Part shown: piece by piece, positions 23,629-32,676 of the stretch
Numbering within the stretch: the stretch's first letter is position 1
Layout of the letters: each line of letters begins with the position of its first letter
NCBI GenBank assembly: GCA_030156255.1
Contig: JASGMV010000004.1
Span: 1-64,000, forward strand
Length of the DNA stretch: 64,000 nucleotides
From: Desulfovibrionales bacterium
GTDB lineage: Bacteria > Desulfobacterota > Desulfovibrionia > Desulfovibrionales > Desulfovibrionaceae
Direction of reading: 5' to 3'
Notes under the pieces: generated by a model
Told to the model about the DNA's origin: nothing
What the model saw: the letters and a program-made list of their open reading frames with translations, nothing else
Databases searched by the model: none
Position numbers and translations under genes: made by a program

Positions 23629-23746
23629 GGGACGAATCCTTTGTTTTCTGGCCGATCAGGCGTCAAACCACAGGTTGCGCCAGGAAGGGATTTCCCCTAC
23701 ATCCAAGACGTGAAGCAGAATGCAGATACAGTGCCAGGTGATAACT

Positions 23747-26038
23747 ATGCGATATGATTTATTGTCTTTGGTTGGGAATACGCCCCTGGTGGAGATTCGA
23801 AGGCTGAATCCCCATGCCAATGTCAAAATATTGGCTAAACTGGAGTCCAAAAATCCCGGCGGCTCCATCAAGGACCGGGTGGCTTTGGCCATGATCGAGC
23901 GAGCCGAAGCGAACGGCGAGCTGACGCCGGAAAAGACCGTCATCGAGGCCACGTCGGGCAATACCGGCATCGGCCTGGCCATGGTCTGCGCGGTCAAGGG
24001 GTACCGGCTGCTGTTGCTTATGGCCGACAATGTCTCGGAGGAGCGCAAACGGATTTTGCGGGCCTACGGCGCCGAGATCATGCACACCCCGGGCCGGCTC
24101 GGCACGGACGGGGCCATCGAGAAGGCCTACCGCATGGCTCGGGAGAATCCGGACGCTTACGTCCTCGTGGACCAGTACAACAATCCGGCCAGCATCGAAG
24201 CCCACCGCAAAGGAACGGCGGCCGAGATATGGCGCGACACCGGGGGGACGGTAACCCACGCCGTGGCCAGCCTGGGAACATCCGGCACGGCCATGGGGCT
24301 GGTCAAAGGACTCAAGGAGTTCGATCCGAAGATCCAGGTCGCGGCCGTGGAGCCCTCGGCCGGGCACAAGATTCAGGGACTCAAAAACATGCACGAGTCC
24401 TATCCTCCCGGCATTTTCGACCGCAAGGCCCTGGACGCCATCCTTCGGGTGGGAGACGAAGAGGCTTTCGAAAACTGCCGCCTGTTGGCCCGCGAGGAGG
24501 GGCTGCTGGTGGGCATGAGCTCCGGAGCGGCGCTGGCGGGCGCTTTGAGACTGGCGGAGGGCCTGGAGTCGGGCGTCGTCGTGGTCATTTTCCCGGACAG
24601 CGGAGAACGCTACCTGAGCACTCCGCTTTTCGTACAGCCCGAGCAGCATGGACTCGGCCTGGTCAACATCGCCTCCATGAAAAAGGTCCACGTCGAGGCC
24701 TCCGGAGGCCGGGCCGGTTTGTTCACCATGGGGCCGAGCCTGGACGATCTCCAGGACCTGGATGCGTGGCGGCGTATCGTCCTGCTGGACGTTTTGGCCC
24801 GCCGGCTCGAAAGCCGGGGCATGGACGCGACTATAGGCGTAGGTTTGGCGGACCTGGACGACCGCGCCCTGGAGGCCGCCCGCGCGGCGGGAATGGGGCG
24901 CGCGGCGTTCGCGGAGCAGGCCGCCGCCGAACTCGAAAGGCTCGCCGTTCTGCTGCGCATCGCCCCCCGGGCCCGGTTCACTCTGGCCGGGAATTGCGTG
25001 GACACCGCCTTGGGGTTGTGCCGCAAGCTGCTGGCCAAGGGGCTGGGCTACGAAAAATTGCGCTCCGTGTACTTCGACGTGCTGCGAGACGACCATTACG
25101 GCGAACTGGCGCGGGTGGACGTGGAGAAGCTCTCCGTCGGCAAGACCGTGGACATGGAGGCCTACGTCAAGGAGCACGACCGCGACTTCACGCTGCTCAA
25201 GCGGGCCAGCCTCCAGGATCTCAAGCTTGGCGACGTGCTGGAGACCGAGTGGGGCAATGTCCGGCCGAGTTGGTTTTTGCAGATGGCCGCGGCCGGCCTG
25301 GACGGGCTCGGCGCCGTGGACGTGCTCCTCGCCGGCGAGACCCACCAGTTCCCGCACCTGGAGAACCTGCGGGCCATTTGGGCCGCGGACGGGGTTGCGC
25401 CGCTGGTCTGGATGATCTCCAAATCCGTGGGCCGACCTTCCAAGGACCATCTCGGCTTGGAGCAGGCCGCGGAGCTGGCGGGCGGCCCTTGCGCCCTTCG
25501 CCTGTGGCTGCTTTCGGCCTCCTATCGCAAGCCCCTGGCGGCCACGGAAGAGAATCTGGCCATGTGGTCCCGCAACTGGCGCAAGCTGCAGGAGCTGGTC
25601 GCCGGGCTTCGCTCCGAAACCGACTGGCCCGCCCAGGAGGACCCGGCTGTCGCGGGCGCCGAGGCCGAGGCTTTGGAGAGAGCGTTGGCCAAAGCCCTGG
25701 AGGACGATCTTTCGCTCCACCGTTTCTGGCCGGAGCTTTTCCTGTTCATCAAGACGGTCAATAGCTTGGCCTCGGAAGGCCGACTGGGGGCCGAGGGCGC
25801 GAAGCTCTGTCTGGAGAGCATCGCCCGAGTGGATGCGATTCTTGGCGTCGTGGACGAAGCACAGCTGCCGGCGCCGGCCGACTCCCTGAGCCCCGAGGCC
25901 GCCCGGCTGGTGCAGGAGCGGGAGCAGGCCCGGAAATCGAAGGATTTCGCCCGCGCCGACGCCTTGCGCGCCGCGCTGGCCGAGGAAGGCTACAGGGTGG
26001 AGGACACCCCGTCGGGGGCAAGAATTTTTCCGGTTTGA
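23747..26038 (+). CDS. cysteine synthase fused to degenerate cysteinyl-tRNA synthetase
   Basis: Two-domain protein of 763 residues. Residues 1-310 are an O-acetylserine sulfhydrylase (CysK type) with PLP Lys42 in NPGGSIKDR, the TSGNTGIG substrate loop (69-76) and GTSGTAMG. Residues 311-763 align by eye with class I CysRS but the active site is ruined: no HIGH motif, MGPS in place of CGPT, SWFLQMA in place of WHIECS, FPHLEN in place of FPHHEN and MISKS in place of KMSKS. Later segments such as LLSASYRKPLAATEENL and the C-terminal helical motif RKSKDFARADALRAALAEEG are well kept. The start is the ATG after CCAGGTGATAACT; an ATG at 23720 is an alternative. A sensing or channelling role for the second domain is inference. 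Confidence 0.9.
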   Translation: MRYDLLSLVGNTPLVEIRRLNPHANVKILAKLESKNPGGSIKDRVALAMIERAEANGELTPEKTVIEATSGNTGIGLAMVCAVKGYRLLLLMADNVSEERKRILRAYGAEIMHTPGRLGTDGAIEKAYRMARENPDAYVLVDQYNNPASIEAHRKGTAAEIWRDTGGTVTHAVASLGTSGTAMGLVKGLKEFDPKIQVAAVEPSAGHKIQGLKNMHESYPPGIFDRKALDAILRVGDEEAFENCRLLAREEGLLVGMSSGAALAGALRLAEGLESGVVVVIFPDSGERYLSTPLFVQPEQHGLGLVNIASMKKVHVEASGGRAGLFTMGPSLDDLQDLDAWRRIVLLDVLARRLESRGMDATIGVGLADLDDRALEAARAAGMGRAAFAEQAAAELERLAVLLRIAPRARFTLAGNCVDTALGLCRKLLAKGLGYEKLRSVYFDVLRDDHYGELARVDVEKLSVGKTVDMEAYVKEHDRDFTLLKRASLQDLKLGDVLETEWGNVRPSWFLQMAAAGLDGLGAVDVLLAGETHQFPHLENLRAIWAADGVAPLVWMISKSVGRPSKDHLGLEQAAELAGGPCALRLWLLSASYRKPLAATEENLAMWSRNWRKLQELVAGLRSETDWPAQEDPAVAGAEAEALERALAKALEDDLSLHRFWPELFLFIKTVNSLASEGRLGAEGAKLCLESIARVDAILGVVDEAQLPAPADSLSPEAARLVQEREQARKSKDFARADALRAALAEEGYRVEDTPSGARIFPV

Positions 26039-26266: not shown

Positions 26267-26749
26267 CTATTTTTTAGCCTTGGCCGCCGCGGTTTTTTTC
26301 GACGCGGACTTCGGTTCTTCCGGTTTCGGAGCGGCTTCGGCCTTGGCGGGAGCCTCGACTTTGGTCTCTTCGGCGGCCAGCCCCTTGGCCTCGCAGGCGG
26401 CCGGGGACTCCTCGGCGGGGGCGGACTGCTCCGGAAGCTCCGCCGGAGCGGCCAACTCTTCGATCACGGGCAATTCCGGTTCGGTGTCGGAGATTTTGAA
26501 CCCTTTGGAGGCGTCTTCCCCGGGAAGCGCTTCGCGCCAGGAGAGTTCGATCTCGATTTTCTGTTTGCCTTTCTTGTTGGCGGCCTTGATCTCGAAATCC
26601 ATCTGGTCGGACGGCTGCAGGGTCACGAAGACTTCGTTGTGTTCGATGCAAATCTTGCCGGCGTCAATGGACTTCATCAGGTCCTTCAGCACGGCGCTGA
26701 CGCCATCGACCGTTAAGACGCCTTTGACGTTCACTTCATTCTTTTTCAT
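26267..26749 (-). CDS. amphi-Trp domain protein with histone-like tail
   Basis: The first 75 residues (MKKNEVNVKGVLT through IEIELSWRE) match the small amphi-Trp domain family as I recall it. The last 80 residues are low-complexity Ala/Glu/Pro/Lys, ending in ASKKTAAAKAKK, like a histone H1-type or nucleoid-binding tail. The ATG at 26749 follows GGAGGACACCGAC. The total is 160 residues. It lies 25 bp downstream of the ribbon-helix-helix-like gene and is probably in its operon. The molecular function of amphi-Trp proteins is not known. Confidence 0.82.
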   Translation of the reverse strand: MKKNEVNVKGVLTVDGVSAVLKDLMKSIDAGKICIEHNEVFVTLQPSDQMDFEIKAANKKGKQKIEIELSWREALPGEDASKGFKISDTEPELPVIEELAAPAELPEQSAPAEESPAACEAKGLAAEETKVEAPAKAEAAPKPEEPKSASKKTAAAKAKK

Positions 26750-26774
26750 GTCGGTGTCCTCCGTGTGGTAATGG

Positions 26775-27086
26775 TTAGGCGACATCCTCGGACACGTCTG
26801 CGTCTTCGGGGGCGCCGGGTTCGGCGTCTGGCTGGGGAGCTGTTTGAGGAGCGGTCTCCTGCTTTTCCGTGTGTTTTCCCTGCTTTTTCTCTTGGATTTC
26901 TTGAAGTTTTTTTTCGGCTTTTTTCAGAAACCGCTCGATGGCTTTGTCCACGGCGGAATCCACGTCCAATTTTTTCCCCATGCACTTTGCGGTTTCTTTT
27001 GCAGATTCAAGCCGTTCTGCGAGATCAAGTCTGACATTGAAGATAACGCGTTTTGTTTCGGTATCTTCTTTGAAAATTCCCATCAT
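26775..27086 (-). CDS. ribbon-helix-helix-like small protein
   Basis: The 103-residue product starts with ETKRVIFNVRLDLAERLE and continues into two helices (SAKETAKCMGKKLDVDSAVD, then KAIERFLKKAEKKL). This is the strand-helix-helix plan of RHH DNA-binding proteins. The tail is Gln/Pro/Glu-rich and disordered. The ATG at 27086 follows AAGGATGGGGAA. An inverted repeat lies just upstream in the leader, which suggests autoregulation. The RHH assignment is by eye and not certain. Confidence 0.72.
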   Translation of the reverse strand: MMGIFKEDTETKRVIFNVRLDLAERLESAKETAKCMGKKLDVDSAVDKAIERFLKKAEKKLQEIQEKKQGKHTEKQETAPQTAPQPDAEPGAPEDADVSEDVA

Positions 27087-27109
27087 TTCCCCATCCTTAT
27101 GAAAATATT

Positions 27110-27128
27110 TTGTACAAATTACGTACAA
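27110..27128. promoter_or_regulatory. candidate operator TTGTAC-N7-GTACAA
   Basis: A perfect 6-bp inverted repeat with a 7-nt AT-rich spacer lies 24 bp upstream of the RHH-like gene start, just downstream of its putative promoter. The size and position suit a dimeric repressor that blocks its own transcription. Confidence 0.55.
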
Positions 27129-28316: not shown

Positions 28317-29978
28317 ATGTATCTCGGCATTGACGTGGGGGGAACCCACACCGACGCTGTGGCTGTGGAGAACGGCGCTGTCAGGGCGTCGTGCAAAATT
28401 GTCACCCGGCACGAAGATTTACTCGCATCCATCAATGGAGCGCTTGAAGAGATTTTGGCCCAAGTGGACGCCGGCGCCGTCCGCCAGCTGAACCTGAGCA
28501 CCACCCTGTCCACCAACGCCCTGGTTCAGGGGCGCATCGACGATGTGGGGGTTCTGGTTTCCTGCGGACCGGGGGTCGATCCCGCCTCTTTCGCGCCGGG
28601 CCGCCATTTTTACATCATCGACGGCGCTATCGACCATCGCGGCGTCGAGTCCCGGGCCTTGGACAAGGCCGCGGCGGCGCGGGCCGTGGACGACTGCCGT
28701 AAGCAGGGAGTGAACGTCTTCGCCGCAGTGACCAAGTTTAGCATCCGCAACCCGTCGCAGGAAATCGCCCTGAAAGAGGCGGCCCAGGACGCGGACTTCG
28801 TGACCATGGGCCATACCCTGGCCGGACGGCTGGGATTCCCTCGGCGTGTCGCCACGGCCTATTTCAACTGCGCGGTCTGGCGGCTGTACAACGGGTTCGT
28901 GAACGCCGTGAGCGAGAGCATCCGGGCCATGGGCCTGAACTGCCCGGTGGGCATGCTCAAGGCGGACGGCGGCACTTTGCCGCTGGACGTTTCCAGAAGC
29001 TTTCCCGTGCAATCCATTTTCTCGGGTCCGGCCGCCAGCGTCATGGGCATCATCGCCCTGTGCGACATCCGCCAGGACTCCGTCATTTTCGACATCGGCG
29101 GGACCACCACGGACATCGCCGTTTTCGCCGAAGGGGCGCCGCTCATCGAGCGGGACGGCATTTCCATTGGCGGGCATCCCACGCTGGTGCGCGCGCTTCG
29201 GGTGCGCTCCATCGCCGTGGGCGGAGATTCGGCGCTCAGCGTGGCGGGCGGTTTGGTGCGGGTCGGCCCCCAGCGCGAAGGCCCGTCCATGGCCGCCGGG
29301 GGCGGCCGCCCCACCCTGACCGACGCCTTGAACGCGGCCGGCCGCAGCGCTTATGGCGACGTGGCCGCCTCCGAAAAAGGCATCGCGGACATGGCCCGGG
29401 ATTACGGCGTGGATGCGCGGAAATTCGCCGAAACCGCCATTCGCTCCGCGGTGGACCATATCCATCAGGAGACCCGCGCCTTTCTGGCGGAGATCAACGA
29501 GCGCCCCGTATACACCATTCATGAGATGCTGGAGGACCGGCGCATCGTCCCGAACAGGGTCTACCTCATGGGCGGGCCGTCCCACTCCATGAGCGGAGAT
29601 GTCCGAGAGGCTTTCAAAACGCCGGTGATCGTGCCGGAGAACGCCTCCGTGGCCAACGCCGTGGGCGCGGCCTTGACCCGCACGACCCACGACGTCCACC
29701 TTTTCGCGGACACGCAACGGGGCTTCTTGCTCATTCCTTCTCTGGAGCTGAGCGAAGAGGTCGGGAAAAATTTCGATTTGAAGGCCGCCGAGGCCGAAGC
29801 GAAAAGAAGGCTTGGCGAGCGCTTGAGGGAAATCGACGCCAGCACCGGTTTCGACGACGTGGAGATAACCGAGTCCAGCTCGTTCAACATGGTGTCCGGA
29901 TACGGAACCGTCGGCAGAAATATCCGGGTCAAGGCCCAGGTCAAGCCGGGCGTGTTGGAGCGGATCAACCAGAGCTGA
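28317..29978 (+). CDS. hydantoinase/oxoprolinase (HyuA-like) ASKHA protein
   Basis: The 553-residue protein is of the HyuA/HyuA_N type. It opens with the ATP-binding MYLGIDVGGTHTDAV, has the NLSTTLSTNALVQGR segment and a second phosphate motif IFDIGGTTTDIAVF near residue 255-270. VYLMGGPSHSM and VANAVGAAL near the end complete the ASKHA fold. The family includes ATP-dependent hydantoin, oxoproline and acetone-carboxylase subunits. No HyuB partner is adjacent, so the reaction is open. The ATG follows GGAAGGGGGCG. The deacetylase-family gene follows after 46 bp. Confidence 0.9.
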   Translation: MYLGIDVGGTHTDAVAVENGAVRASCKIVTRHEDLLASINGALEEILAQVDAGAVRQLNLSTTLSTNALVQGRIDDVGVLVSCGPGVDPASFAPGRHFYIIDGAIDHRGVESRALDKAAAARAVDDCRKQGVNVFAAVTKFSIRNPSQEIALKEAAQDADFVTMGHTLAGRLGFPRRVATAYFNCAVWRLYNGFVNAVSESIRAMGLNCPVGMLKADGGTLPLDVSRSFPVQSIFSGPAASVMGIIALCDIRQDSVIFDIGGTTTDIAVFAEGAPLIERDGISIGGHPTLVRALRVRSIAVGGDSALSVAGGLVRVGPQREGPSMAAGGGRPTLTDALNAAGRSAYGDVAASEKGIADMARDYGVDARKFAETAIRSAVDHIHQETRAFLAEINERPVYTIHEMLEDRRIVPNRVYLMGGPSHSMSGDVREAFKTPVIVPENASVANAVGAALTRTTHDVHLFADTQRGFLLIPSLELSEEVGKNFDLKAAEAEAKRRLGERLREIDASTGFDDVEITESSSFNMVSGYGTVGRNIRVKAQVKPGVLERINQS

Positions 29979-30024
29979 ACCGGAGAGCAAACCTTGGATC
30001 GATTGGCTAATTAGAGGTCCAGCC

Positions 30025-31344
30025 ATGCATAACGATAAGAATAAATTAGGAATTATTTTTTTCCCGGCCTTTGATTGGGCCATTTCGCCCACCCACCCGG
30101 AGCGCGAAGAGCGGTTGTTGTACACCCAGGACCAGCTTTGGGAGGAGGGGGTCTTCGACATCAAGGGCGTGTGCGAATACAAGCCGGACGTCGCCGAACG
30201 CACGGACGTGGAGCGCGCCCATTTCTGTTTTCCGGACGTGGACGCCGTGACCACGCGCTCCCACATGATCGCCGCCGGCGGCGCCATCCGCGCCGCCCGG
30301 CTGGTTCTGGAGAACGAATGCGACAAGGCCTTCGCCTTGGTCCGGCCTCCGGGACACCACGCCATGAAAGTGGTCCACGGATCGCGCGGTTTCTGCAACA
30401 TCAACAACGAAGCCGTCATGATCGAATACGCCCGGGAGCATTACGGGATCAAGCGCGTGGCCGTGGTGGACACCGACTGCCATCACGGCGACGGCAGCCA
30501 GGACGTTTTTTGGCACGACCCCGACGTGTTGTTCATCTCCCTGCACCAGGACGGGCGGACGTTGTACCCCGGCTCAGGCTTCCCGACGGAGTGCGGCGGC
30601 CCTAAAGCTCTCGGCAGGACCATCAACATCCCGCTGCCTCCGAGGACTTCGGATGAAGGCTTCCTCACCGTTCTGGACAGGGTGGTGCTGCCCATTCTGG
30701 ACGATTTCAAGCCTGAGCTGATCGTCAACTCCGCAGGCCAGGACAATCACTATTCCGACCCCATCACCAACATGAACTTCTCGGCCCAGGGCTACGCGCT
30801 GCTCAACCAAAGACTCTCCCCGCATATCGCGGTGCTGGAGGGCGGTTACTCCATTCAGGGCGCCTTGCCGTACGTGAACCTGGGCATCATCCTGGCCATG
30901 GCCGGGCAGGACTTCTCCCATGTCCGGGAACCCGACTACAACGCGGAAGCCATTCGCCAGGACCGCCGCATCGACGATTACGTCGACGCTTTGTGCGACC
31001 AACTGCCCGCGCTTTATTTCGATCCGCCCAGCACTCCGGAGGATGGTTCGTTCTCCAACGGGTGCTACGTGCGCAAGAAAAACATCTACTACGACACGGA
31101 CGGCATTACCGAAACGCAGGTGGAGTCGCTCCACCTGTGCGACGACTGCCTGGGCGTTCTGAAAGTGGAGAGCAAGTCTTCGGTGAACCCGAAGAGCCTG
31201 GGCGTGCAGCTTTACGCCGGCGCCTGCGAGTCCTGCCGGAGCCTGGCCCTCGACATGGTCGAGCAGGCGCGGCTCAAGGGCGATTACCGGTTCATCCAGT
31301 TCATCAACCGCTGCGACAAAGAGTACTCCCGCTACGGTTATTGA
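30025..31344 (+). CDS. histone-deacetylase-family amidohydrolase with Cys4 tail
   Basis: Zinc amidohydrolase of the HDAC/acetylpolyamine amidohydrolase/AcuC superfamily. Key motifs are VRPPGHHAM (106-114), DTDCHHGDG with zinc ligands Asp151 and His153, the third ligand Asp240 in NSAGQDNH, and the catalytic Tyr275 in LEGGYSI. Bacterial members deacetylate polyamines, acetoin-related or protein substrates. Unusually it carries about 100 extra C-terminal residues with two Cys pairs (CDDC at 372-375, CESC at 401-404) likely to bind a second metal. It is probably cotranscribed with the HyuA-like gene. Its last 7 bp overlap the convergent binding-protein gene. Confidence 0.92.
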   Translation: MHNDKNKLGIIFFPAFDWAISPTHPEREERLLYTQDQLWEEGVFDIKGVCEYKPDVAERTDVERAHFCFPDVDAVTTRSHMIAAGGAIRAARLVLENECDKAFALVRPPGHHAMKVVHGSRGFCNINNEAVMIEYAREHYGIKRVAVVDTDCHHGDGSQDVFWHDPDVLFISLHQDGRTLYPGSGFPTECGGPKALGRTINIPLPPRTSDEGFLTVLDRVVLPILDDFKPELIVNSAGQDNHYSDPITNMNFSAQGYALLNQRLSPHIAVLEGGYSIQGALPYVNLGIILAMAGQDFSHVREPDYNAEAIRQDRRIDDYVDALCDQLPALYFDPPSTPEDGSFSNGCYVRKKNIYYDTDGITETQVESLHLCDDCLGVLKVESKSSVNPKSLGVQLYAGACESCRSLALDMVEQARLKGDYRFIQFINRCDKEYSRYGY

Positions 31345-32534
31345 TCGGAGGACGGGTCGGCCTTCTGCTGCAACTCCGTGGGGCAGAAGCGGGTGATGCT
31401 CGTTTCGCCGTTCGGGTCGATGCGCACCATGAAGATCTCCGTCACGGGATCGCCCGTCACGTTGAACTCCACCAGCCCGGTCACTCCCTGGTAGGGCGGC
31501 ATGTCCACCAGGGCCTGGGCGATCTTTTGCGGATTGGCGTCGCCGGCGCGGCGCACGGCCGCGAACAGCGCTCCGAAGGCGTCGTAGGTCAGGGCGGCCA
31601 TTTCCGTGGGCGGGTGGTTGTACATTTTTTCATACGCGGCCACGAACGCCTTGTTGCCGGGAGTGGGCATGTCCGGCAGCCAGTGGTCGATGAAAACCGT
31701 GTTGCGGAACTCCCGGGCGCCGAACAGCTCGCGCCCTTTCCAGGAATCCGGGCCGATAACCACCTTCTTGAACCCGAGTTTGCGAAGCTCCCGCACCTGG
31801 ATCATGACTTCCTTGTACGCATTGGGCAGGAAGACGGTGTCCGGCGCGCCGGCGACGATGTCCCGCAGCAAGGCTCCAAAGTTGCGTTCGGCCTTGCCGT
31901 AGGGCGCGTTGGCGGTGATTTTTCCGCCGAACGCCGTGAAGTCCTTGGTGAAAACCTGATCGAACTCCCGGGCGTAGACGTCGGATGCGTCGAAGAGCAC
32001 GGCGGCCGTGGAGATTTTGAGCTCGTTGAAAGCATACCAGGCCAAGGCTTGCCCCTGGACGTTGTTGTTGTCCGGGATGCGGAACACGTACTTCTTGCCG
32101 TGGGTGAGGCTGCTCACCGTGGCGAAGGGGGTGATCATGGGCGTGCGCAACCGCTGGGCCACGCTGGCGACGTCTTCGGCCAGCGTGCTGAAGACCGGGC
32201 CGATAATGGCGGCCGCGCCGTCTTTTTCAATGAGCTTGGCGGCCGCGTCGGCCGCTGTTTGAGGATCGTGGCGACTGTCTTCGGTCAGCAGCCGGACTTT
32301 CAACCGGGGAGCGTCAGAGGCCGGCCCCAGGGGAACGCCTCCCTGGTCGTTCGCCTCCTTGGCCGCGAATCTGGCGGCCTCCACGGCGTCCTGCCCGTAG
32401 CGAAAAAGTTCGCCGCTCATGACGGCGATGAGCCCGACGGTCAGTTCTCCGGACGGCTTTTGATCCCCTCCGGAGCACCCCGCGAAGAGGACTAGGACGA
32501 GAAGACCCGTGTAAATCCATCGGCGCTGCAACAT
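31338..32534 (-). CDS. periplasmic branched-chain-type binding lipoprotein
   Basis: ABC-transporter substrate-binding protein of the Leu/Ile/Val receptor type (Peripla_BP_6). The signal sequence IYTGLLVLVLFAGC ends in a lipobox. The mature domain begins with LTVGLIAVMSGELFRYGQDA and contains AAIIGPVFSTLAEDVASVAQ, a typical ligand-cleft loop. The 398-residue length fits. The start is uncertain: the ATG at 32534 has no clear ribosome site, and upstream candidates at 32558 and 32573 are possible. No permease or ATPase gene is next to it, so it may be an orphan receptor. Confidence 0.88.
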   Translation of the reverse strand: MLQRRWIYTGLLVLVLFAGCSGGDQKPSGELTVGLIAVMSGELFRYGQDAVEAARFAAKEANDQGGVPLGPASDAPRLKVRLLTEDSRHDPQTAADAAAKLIEKDGAAAIIGPVFSTLAEDVASVAQRLRTPMITPFATVSSLTHGKKYVFRIPDNNNVQGQALAWYAFNELKISTAAVLFDASDVYAREFDQVFTKDFTAFGGKITANAPYGKAERNFGALLRDIVAGAPDTVFLPNAYKEVMIQVRELRKLGFKKVVIGPDSWKGRELFGAREFRNTVFIDHWLPDMPTPGNKAFVAAYEKMYNHPPTEMAALTYDAFGALFAAVRRAGDANPQKIAQALVDMPPYQGVTGLVEFNVTGDPVTEIFMVRIDPNGETSITRFCPTELQQKADPSSDQ

Positions 32535-32676
32535 GGCCGTCCGAGAACAATTTCGCATATCGGCAATCCCCACAACGGAAAGGCGCGTTTTTTCGACTTA
32601 CAATTCGTCCCCCATAAAAAATGTTTTTGGGAAAGGGGATGGGGTTCCCCCTTCCCCCGGTTCGCACAAGCGAAAT

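Follow-up and report, generated by a model that had tools for sequence, protein, structure and literature searches.

We conclude that a HyuA-like ASKHA gene and the histone deacetylase (HDAC)-family gene that follows it form a functional pair, as supported by their linkage, joint occurrence and co-inheritance. We propose, with a probability of roughly two in five, that their products constitute an ATP-dependent pair that cleaves amides or lactams, in which an HDAC-fold enzyme would take the place of HyuB. The two genes lie within a window of 64,000 nucleotides from the genome of a bacterium of the Desulfovibrionales, which is the whole stretch of DNA that was analyzed. To our knowledge, no cooperation between the HyuA and HDAC families has been described, and no publication about such a pair was found in the open-access subset of the literature. 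The terms "desulfo", "hydantoin" and "spirochaet" are absent from the main text of PMC11532494, and a D. vulgaris fitness study (PMC10102598) contains none of "deacetylase", "hydantoin", "oxoprolin", "amidohydrolase" or "histone", with "polyamine" occurring once.

Linkage and co-inheritance of the two genes

The HyuA-like open reading frame (28317..29978, plus strand) begins with MYLGIDVGGTHTDAV at 28317 and encodes 553 aa, with its last codon extending to 29975 and its stop codon to 29978. The mechanically called frame is longer, from 28047, and the start at 28317 is backed by relatives. The HDAC-family open reading frame (30025..31344, plus strand, 439 aa) follows after a spacer of 46 nt, and the coordinates confirm the observation in the earlier note that the two genes sit 46 bp apart on the same strand.

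The same order was found in most of the loci retrieved. In 122 of the 138 loci that were fetched, a set that was not de-duplicated, HyuA is located immediately 5′ of the HDAC gene and on its strand, and the two genes overlap in 46 of these 122 linked loci and are separated by no more than 20 nt in 99, counts that depend on start codons chosen by a script. Very long open frames that resembled HyuA-HDAC fusions were interpreted as shadow frames, with the genes in different frames in two such loci (L013 and L030), and no fusion was seen among the loci examined, which were some of these long-frame cases.

A census of 296 other genomes in the phylum of the window identified both genes in 82, HyuA alone in one, the HDAC gene alone in none, and neither gene in 213. 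Because 82 genomes have both genes and only one has a single gene, the two share a function, one that is as yet undescribed. Both genes were found in 35 of 58 other relatives, unlinked in some, and co-occurrence persists in genomes where the genes are unlinked. The exceptions are two genomes (G356 and G360) that carry the HDAC gene with no detectable HyuA, plus two cases represented by fragments only. In mirror trees built from 66 pairs, the distance correlation was 0.876 compared with a maximum of 0.157 in 1000 label permutations, with this value and the Fisher value both inflated by shared descent and the baseline set without a control gene. The pair is distributed across anaerobic deltaproteobacterial lineages and Spirochaetes. 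Both families are broad and the genes stand apart in some genomes, but linkage, mirror trees and the co-occurrence of unlinked copies contradict the idea that these are chance neighbors with no joint function, which we find hardly credible. The same linkage and co-occurrence speak against random pairing in relatives, the outcome that the earlier note had named as fatal to its proposal.

The HyuA-like protein and its relatives

The first protein belongs to the HyuA/OplA superfamily, matching PF05378 with 90.2 bits (cut-off 25.2) and PF01968 with 135.7 bits (cut-off 22.9). Its phosphate-1 motif DVGGT (residues 6-10; 28332..28346, plus strand) and phosphate-2 motif DIGGTTTD (residues 259-266; 29091..29114, plus strand) are conserved, with D6, G8, G9, T10, D259, G261, G262, T263 and D266 invariant in 70 of 70 HyuA proteins of the pair. 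The AF2 model (pLDDT 91.8, pTM 0.89) was searched with Foldseek, and the best matches were N-methylhydantoinase, acetone carboxylase, acetophenone carboxylase and the caprolactamase subunit CapA, with TM-scores by query of 0.66-0.76 and rmsd of 6.2-8.5 Å. The seven top structural matches are all HyuA-type subunits from lactamases or carboxylases.

The pair is like CapAB, N-methylhydantoinase HyuAB and 5-oxoprolinase OplAB in its ASKHA subunit, phosphate-1 and phosphate-2 motifs and overall fold, and also in having a zinc hydrolase as the partner. Acetone and acetophenone carboxylases have a kinase subunit homologous to HyuA as well. The partner itself is different: it is HyuB or CapB in HyuAB and CapAB, and a HyuB-type subunit in the two carboxylases, whereas in the pair it is an HDAC-type hydrolase, and no PF02538 match was obtained among the eight window proteins scanned, which were the pair and its neighbors. 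The earlier description of a HyuA without HyuB holds for the proteins scanned at this locus, and the genome encodes an ordinary HyuAB-type pair elsewhere (contig G000:C62). According to PMC8453981, CapA is 696 aa long, compared with 553 aa for HyuA of the pair, and GxxPGP is the adenosine motif of the lactamase alpha subunit. This loop is absent from 70 of 70 HyuA proteins of the pair and present in L208_4, a HyuAB-type protein from this genome, and its absence casts doubt on phosphorylation of a small molecule by HyuA.

The missing loop, strict co-occurrence, and profile matches to MutL, GlmL and BcrAD-type ASKHA proteins that are weak and fall short of the cut-offs would each fit a role in which HyuA uses ATP to activate, assemble or reactivate the HDAC protein, in the manner of GlmL or BcrAD-type proteins. 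We consider this role unlikely given that the seven best structural matches are lactamase and carboxylase subunits, and we know of no HDAC-fold enzyme that requires an activator.

The relatedness of HyuA to 5-oxoprolinases also raised the idea that the pair is a third type of this enzyme, replacing OplAB/HyuAB or PxpABC. In line with this, 38 of 82 bearers have neither HyuB nor PxpA, and bearers encode HyuB (PF02538) somewhat less often (30 of 82) than non-bearers do (107 of 214; p = 0.05). On the other side, 44 of the 82 bearers have at least one known type, the tests of the pair against PxpA and against either known type gave p = 0.22 and Fisher p = 1.0, respectively, and a HyuAB-type pair is present in the window's own genome. 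With no complementary pattern overall, the distribution speaks against replacement, and a 5-oxoprolinase of a third type is very improbable.

The HDAC-family protein and its C-terminal region

The second protein is a classical HDAC-fold zinc deacylase by family match (PF00850, E 2e-67, 228.1 bits) and by its six signature residues, H111, H112, D151, H153, D240 and Y275, which are present in 77 of 77 sequences. Its AF2 model (pLDDT 90.4, pTM 0.92) aligns with Bordetella HDAH (2vcg) with a Z of 39.7 in VIA-align. The His pair H111-H112 lies in RPPGHH (30355..30360), the zinc ligands D151 and H153 lie in DTDCHHG (30475..30483), the zinc ligand D240 and a PIT motif (residues 246-248) span 30742..30768, and Tyr275 ends EGGY (30838..30849). 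All of these are on the plus strand and invariant in the 77 sequences, with the catalytic roles of the His pair and Tyr275 and the metal-binding roles of D151 and H153 taken from the family.

As we read the sequence, PIT would occupy the gatekeeper position, which according to PMC11532494 (Graf et al. 2024) is PIS in bacterial acetylpolyamine deacetylases (cluster 4, ApaH) and PEG in HDAC10; by the same paper, RPP and EGGY are compatible with plain removal of acetyl groups. The protein resembles the bacterial classical deacylases HdaH, Kdac1 and ApaH, which belong to the clusters defined there, in its fold, its His pair, its Asp-His-Asp zinc site and its RPP and EGGY motifs, and differs from them in its extra Cys4 region, its invariant QDNH and PIT segments and its near-constant HyuA partner.

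Past the HDAC fold is a C-terminal region (approximately residues 337-439; 31033..31341, plus strand) that contains YYDTD and two cysteine pairs, C372-x2-C375 (31138..31149) and C401-x2-C404 (31225..31236), both on the plus strand and both invariant in 77 of 77 sequences. Alignments to solved HDACs span residues ~5-336 and leave Cys372, Cys375, Cys401 and Cys404 beyond their end, which bears out the earlier claim of an additional Cys4 region outside the catalytic fold, and the region is modeled with high confidence (AF2, pLDDT 88-98 in 10-residue blocks). The spacing of the cysteines suggests that it may be a second metal site. Among four representatives scanned, no Pfam family exceeded its cut-off in the C-terminal region; the best zinc-ribbon match reached 18.3 bits (cut-off 22) in one of the four, with none listed for the region in the window. 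The Cys4 region probably functions in substrate recognition, oligomerization or docking. In L008 and G026, matches 3′ of the HDAC gene had suggested a free-standing C-terminal domain; the L008 match looks like a leftover duplicate of the 3′ end of that gene, and for that locus the free-domain reading was dropped.

Neighboring genes and the proposed joint function

Neighborhoods were clustered for 80 named loci and then again after adding 40 fetched regions together with part of the window, and no family beyond the pair appeared in more than 14 loci. Since no third conserved neighbor was found, whatever HyuA phosphorylates would need to be used by the HDAC protein or by a housekeeping enzyme. 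The commonest neighbor families (f2, f3 and f4, 14 loci each) are surE-like and tmk-like, both by sequence reading, and YhaM-like; these mark the site of unlinked HDAC genes in a single bacterial family, and their frequency is raised because those loci were fetched deliberately. Convergent to the pair is a Peripla_BP_6 protein (31338-32549, minus strand), a real gene by Pfam, which had been proposed to import the substrate. A tblastn match to it was found in one of 138 other loci (L083; 29%, ~127 aa), with flanks of up to ~1.5 kb in part of the loci and up to 5 kb in the rest, which leaves the proposed import unsupported.

A carboxynorspermidine synthase-like gene is found near an unlinked HDAC gene in seven loci, adjoining it in five, and one member has NF043000 as its best NCBIfam match (E 2e-121, below cut-off). 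Further along in three loci is an NspC-like gene, one member of which scores 378 bits against TIGR01047 (cut-off 409). A gene of the EpmA family, whose product handles lysine-type amines, adjoins the HDAC gene in nine loci and is one gene off in two, and one member passes TIGR00462. RlmN-like and MnmA-like genes are also neighbors in some lineages, as judged from sequence reading. The polyamine and EpmA neighborhoods look lineage-specific. NspC exceeds its cut-off in 3 of 17 other pair-bearing genomes, with the remaining matches at 40 bits or less, and for this reason a polyamine link was dropped as the general function and retained as a lead. EpmA exceeds its cut-off in 111 of 297 genomes but in none of 11 searched members of the family to which the window belongs, and an EF-P link with EpmA as a required partner was rejected for this reason.

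These genes bear on two further explanations. The first is a sequential pathway, where the HDAC protein removes the acetyl group from a small N-acetylated amine (an acetylpolyamine or an N-acetyl-lysine-like compound) without using ATP and HyuA carries out a separate ATP-dependent step, after or before, on the same carbon skeleton. RPP, EGGY, the closeness of PIT to PIS of bacterial acetylpolyamine deacetylases, and the carboxynorspermidine synthase-like, NspC-like and EpmA-family neighbors are all consistent with such a pathway, but the narrow distributions of NspC and EpmA are not, and HDAC6 and HdaH rank above acetylpolyamine enzymes in a sequence search; we regard it as possible, though on the unlikely side. 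In the second, the HDAC protein would remove acyl groups from lysines of another protein, either HyuA or a translation factor. Its nearest folds, HdaH and Kdac1, are protein deacylases and some lineages have the translation-related neighbors described above, but no neighbor was found to be conserved across lineages and EpmA stays below its cut-off in the genomes searched from the window's family, making this explanation quite unlikely.

We favor the reading in which the products of the two genes work together as a single enzyme system made of two proteins. HyuA would spend ATP to activate the carbonyl of an amide or lactam (phospho-lactim type), as is thought for the alpha subunit of HyuAB and CapAB, and the HDAC-fold zinc hydrolase would then cut the activated bond, standing in for the metal subunit HyuB. 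As for the substrate, the most natural guess would be either a small N-acyl amine or a lysine- or diamine-like compound in the form of its cyclic amide. For CapAB, the authors of PMC8453981 ascribe phosphorylation to the alpha subunit, whereas the Zn beta subunit is given the hydrolytic role. Bicarbonate is required by CapAB. We count against a single enzyme that RPP and EGGY fit plain deacetylation and that two genomes have the HDAC gene without HyuA, and a tight complex is disfavored because several genomes carry the two genes apart from each other. Furthermore, HDAC-fold enzymes hydrolyze ordinary amides without ATP, so that activation by HyuA would be unnecessary for a linear amide. The amide or acyl pathway claimed in the earlier note is plausible. 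More tentatively, the pair could represent one more way of building an ATP-dependent hydrolase of amides or lactams, in which a HyuA kinase works with an HDAC-fold zinc hydrolase that carries an undescribed Cys4 region and replaces HyuB.

The names "histone deacetylase" and "hydantoinase" likely misname what these two proteins do together. If they are one enzyme, two large families would be joined, and the pair would offer a concrete entry to the roles of the HDAC family in bacteria. We know of no earlier case of an HDAC-superfamily enzyme that depends on an ATP-consuming partner, and the HDAC protein of the pair would, if our proposal is true, be the first to rely on one.

A HyuA–HDAC gene pair conserved in relatives

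In the 64 kb window on contig C63, part of a 3.84 Mb genome split into 106 contigs, a HyuA-like gene (28317-29978; 553 aa; Pfam PF05378 and PF01968 over cut-off) and an HDAC-family gene (30025-31344; 439 aa; PF00850 over cut-off) lie on the same strand, separated by a spacer of 46 nt. Against NCBIfam, the HyuA had no family over cut-off and the HDAC protein no match at E 0.01. Searching genome contigs with the HDAC protein yielded 295 confirmed relatives. The best 80 of these ("named loci"), 58-70% identical to the window protein, are labelled as Desulfovibrio and its relatives, Desulfobacterales, other Deltaproteobacteria, Spirochaetes and a few unplaced bacteria. Loci from genome searches brought the total to 138, not de-duplicated, so a genome may count twice. 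The earlier note had treated the two genes as a pair, and their pairing in relatives is indeed non-random: a HyuA ortholog was immediately upstream of the HDAC gene, on the same strand, at 122 of the 138 loci (71/80 among the named loci only). With script-chosen start codons, gaps across the 122 linked loci ran from -20 to 282 nt, were ≤20 nt in 99 and were overlaps in 46. HyuA was missing from the locus in the other 16 (L007, L016, L017, L024, L042, L053, L063, L065, L066, L089, L090, L123, L131, L135, L136 and L138), including a truncated HyuA at a contig end (L042) and a contig end (L065).

Both proteins were also used as queries against the same genomes. In the phylum set a score gap sets the orthologs apart: HDAC orthologs scored at least 497 bits, above a 256-bit fragment in G198 (a genome that also carries the full gene) and then 175, and HyuA orthologs at least 305 bits, followed by 168. 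Orthologs that were split or truncated were scored present (e.g. HyuA in G247, G329, G192 and G322, HDAC in G332), as was the stop-containing HDAC gene of G094. Among 296 phylum genomes besides the window's own, 82 had both genes, 213 neither, none HDAC only and one HyuA only (G295, 89% complete), for a Fisher value of ~1e-73 with the total taken as 297 and shared descent ignored. Of 58 other relatives, 35 had both, 21 neither, and the last two just a fragment of one gene (HyuA in G014, HDAC in G029); among the 35, HyuA was in pieces in G022, G026 and G050 and carried an in-frame stop in G010. G028 was counted in both sets. In G021, G034, G003, G025, G006 and G276, and in seven genomes from genus g48, both genes were kept though on separate contigs or distant; in G002 (apparently the same genome as G354) 5 kb separates them. 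Nine genomes stand behind the named loci that lack a complete HyuA next to the HDAC gene. Seven of them hold a HyuA ortholog (the truncated copy in the case of G362) and G356 and G360 have none despite their HDAC gene, so an HDAC gene without HyuA is rare but does occur.

Trees of both proteins covered 66 pairs, the window's own and those of 65 named loci. Their path distances correlated at 0.876, to which shared species history contributes, with at most 0.157 in 1000 label permutations; topologies were alike, not identical (L045, for example, is placed differently). Because Spirochaetes sequences are nested among deltaproteobacterial ones in both midpoint-rooted trees, we suggest that the genes were transferred as one unit.

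At L008:5778-5978 and G026:C95:4963-5085, the 3' end of the HDAC gene recurs as an incomplete second copy after the intact gene; this copy, read at the sequence level in L008 only, looks like a scar of insertion or duplication. C63 of the window's genome (G000) encodes a second, distant HDAC-family protein near 80772-82040 (L215:3773-5041), ~28-31% identical over part and ~50 kb from the pair. At 23720-26038 (+), a single 772-aa protein carries a PALP domain resembling cysteine synthase together with a catalytic and a C-terminal domain resembling those of cysteinyl-tRNA synthetase (PF00291, PF01406 and PF23493, all over cut-off); by eye its HIGH and KMSKS signatures appear degenerate. At 26267-27128 (-), a protein with an amphi-Trp domain (PF20068, TIGR04354) adjoins a small protein that had no family over cut-off.

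Features of the two proteins

In an alignment of 77 HDAC proteins (the window's and 76 of those from the 80 named loci), the H111/H112 pair, D151, H153, D240 and Y275 are invariant, with roles that we take to be those of the HDAC family; RPP (107-109), QDNH (239-242), PIT (246-248) and EGGY (272-275) are invariant too. The Fig. 1 legend of PMC11532494 also gives the family's residue roles, and in passages of that paper acetyl preference goes with RPP and EGGY, the polyamine preference of HDAC10 with PEG, and bacterial polyamine deacetylases with PIS. Of the motifs in those passages PIT is closest to PIS, a likeness that proves nothing. In the AF2 model (mean pLDDT 90.4, pTM 0.92; weakest block, residues 21-30), residues 1-336 match HdaH-type deacylases (2vcg; VIA-align Z 39.7, 2.7 A over 326 residues). 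The Cys4 region lies beyond this match, outside the HDAC fold as earlier proposed, in an added region (~337-439) that contains YYDTD and two C-x2-C pairs, whose four Cys are invariant. Searched at E up to 10, four representatives of the region gave no Pfam family over cut-off and sub-threshold matches mostly to zinc ribbons; the Cys4 region probably holds a structural zinc.

The HyuA model (AF2, pLDDT 91.8) resembles the caprolactamase subunit CapA as well as subunits of N-methylhydantoinase and of acetone and acetophenone carboxylases, with TM-scores by query of 0.66-0.76 and an rmsd of 6.2-8.5 A. Among the pair HyuAs, the phosphate motifs are invariant (70/70). GxxPGP, the adenosine-binding motif according to a passage of PMC8453981, occurs in 0/70 and is present in the HyuAB-type protein of the window's genome, whose HyuAB-type pair sits on contig C62; the pair HyuA is thus a divergent subfamily and no displaced half of HyuAB. 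The missing motif is not peculiar to the pair, because it is equally absent from six further HyuA-like proteins that were examined. A second HyuA-like group (L209:5060-7062, L210:4277-6282, L212:4974-6964 and L213:5211-7373; ~542-667 aa) is 32-36% identical to the window HyuA over ~320-345 columns. In 4/6 examined loci it adjoins a small protein (98-120 aa; similar to one another by eye). Inspection by eye showed no HyuB next to the group, which may be another HyuA-only two-gene unit.

Neighbours and a candidate function

Neighbourhood comparison of the loci found no conserved neighbour besides the partner. Two lineage-specific links hint at amines. In 7 loci, all with HyuA elsewhere, the HDAC gene has a carboxynorspermidine synthase-like gene nearby (directly adjacent in 5), and 3 of these 7 also have an NspC-like gene; in 11 loci the HDAC gene has an EpmA-family gene nearby (directly adjacent in 9). 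One EpmA-family member exceeded its NCBIfam cut-off; one carboxynorspermidine synthase-like and one NspC-like member fell below theirs despite E 2e-121 and 3e-113. Neither link held generally, with NspC over cut-off in just 3/17 other bearers of the pair and EpmA in 0/11 searched genomes of the window's family. Replacement of 5-oxoprolinase by the pair was likewise unsupported across 296 genomes: PxpA, part of the known enzyme PxpABC, occurred in 23/82 bearers vs 45/214 others (p=0.22), HyuB (PF02538) in 30/82 vs 107/214 (p=0.05), and either of them gave p=1.0.

The HDAC and HyuA folds themselves are already known. Searches of the literature for the pair gave no paper recognisable by its listing as describing a HyuA–HDAC partnership, and as far as these searches go the partnership and the Cys4 region are undescribed. 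A sequential pathway, with deacetylation plus a separate kinase step, is a rather unlikely account of the pair, and a HyuA serving as an ATP-driven activator is considerably more doubtful. From homology, near-strict co-inheritance and the lack of a third conserved gene we infer, with a probability of about 0.4, a closed two-protein system: HyuA would activate an amide or lactam at the expense of ATP, and the HDAC-fold enzyme would then hydrolyse it, taking the role that a passage of PMC8453981 assigns in caprolactamase CapAB to the HyuB-type subunit.
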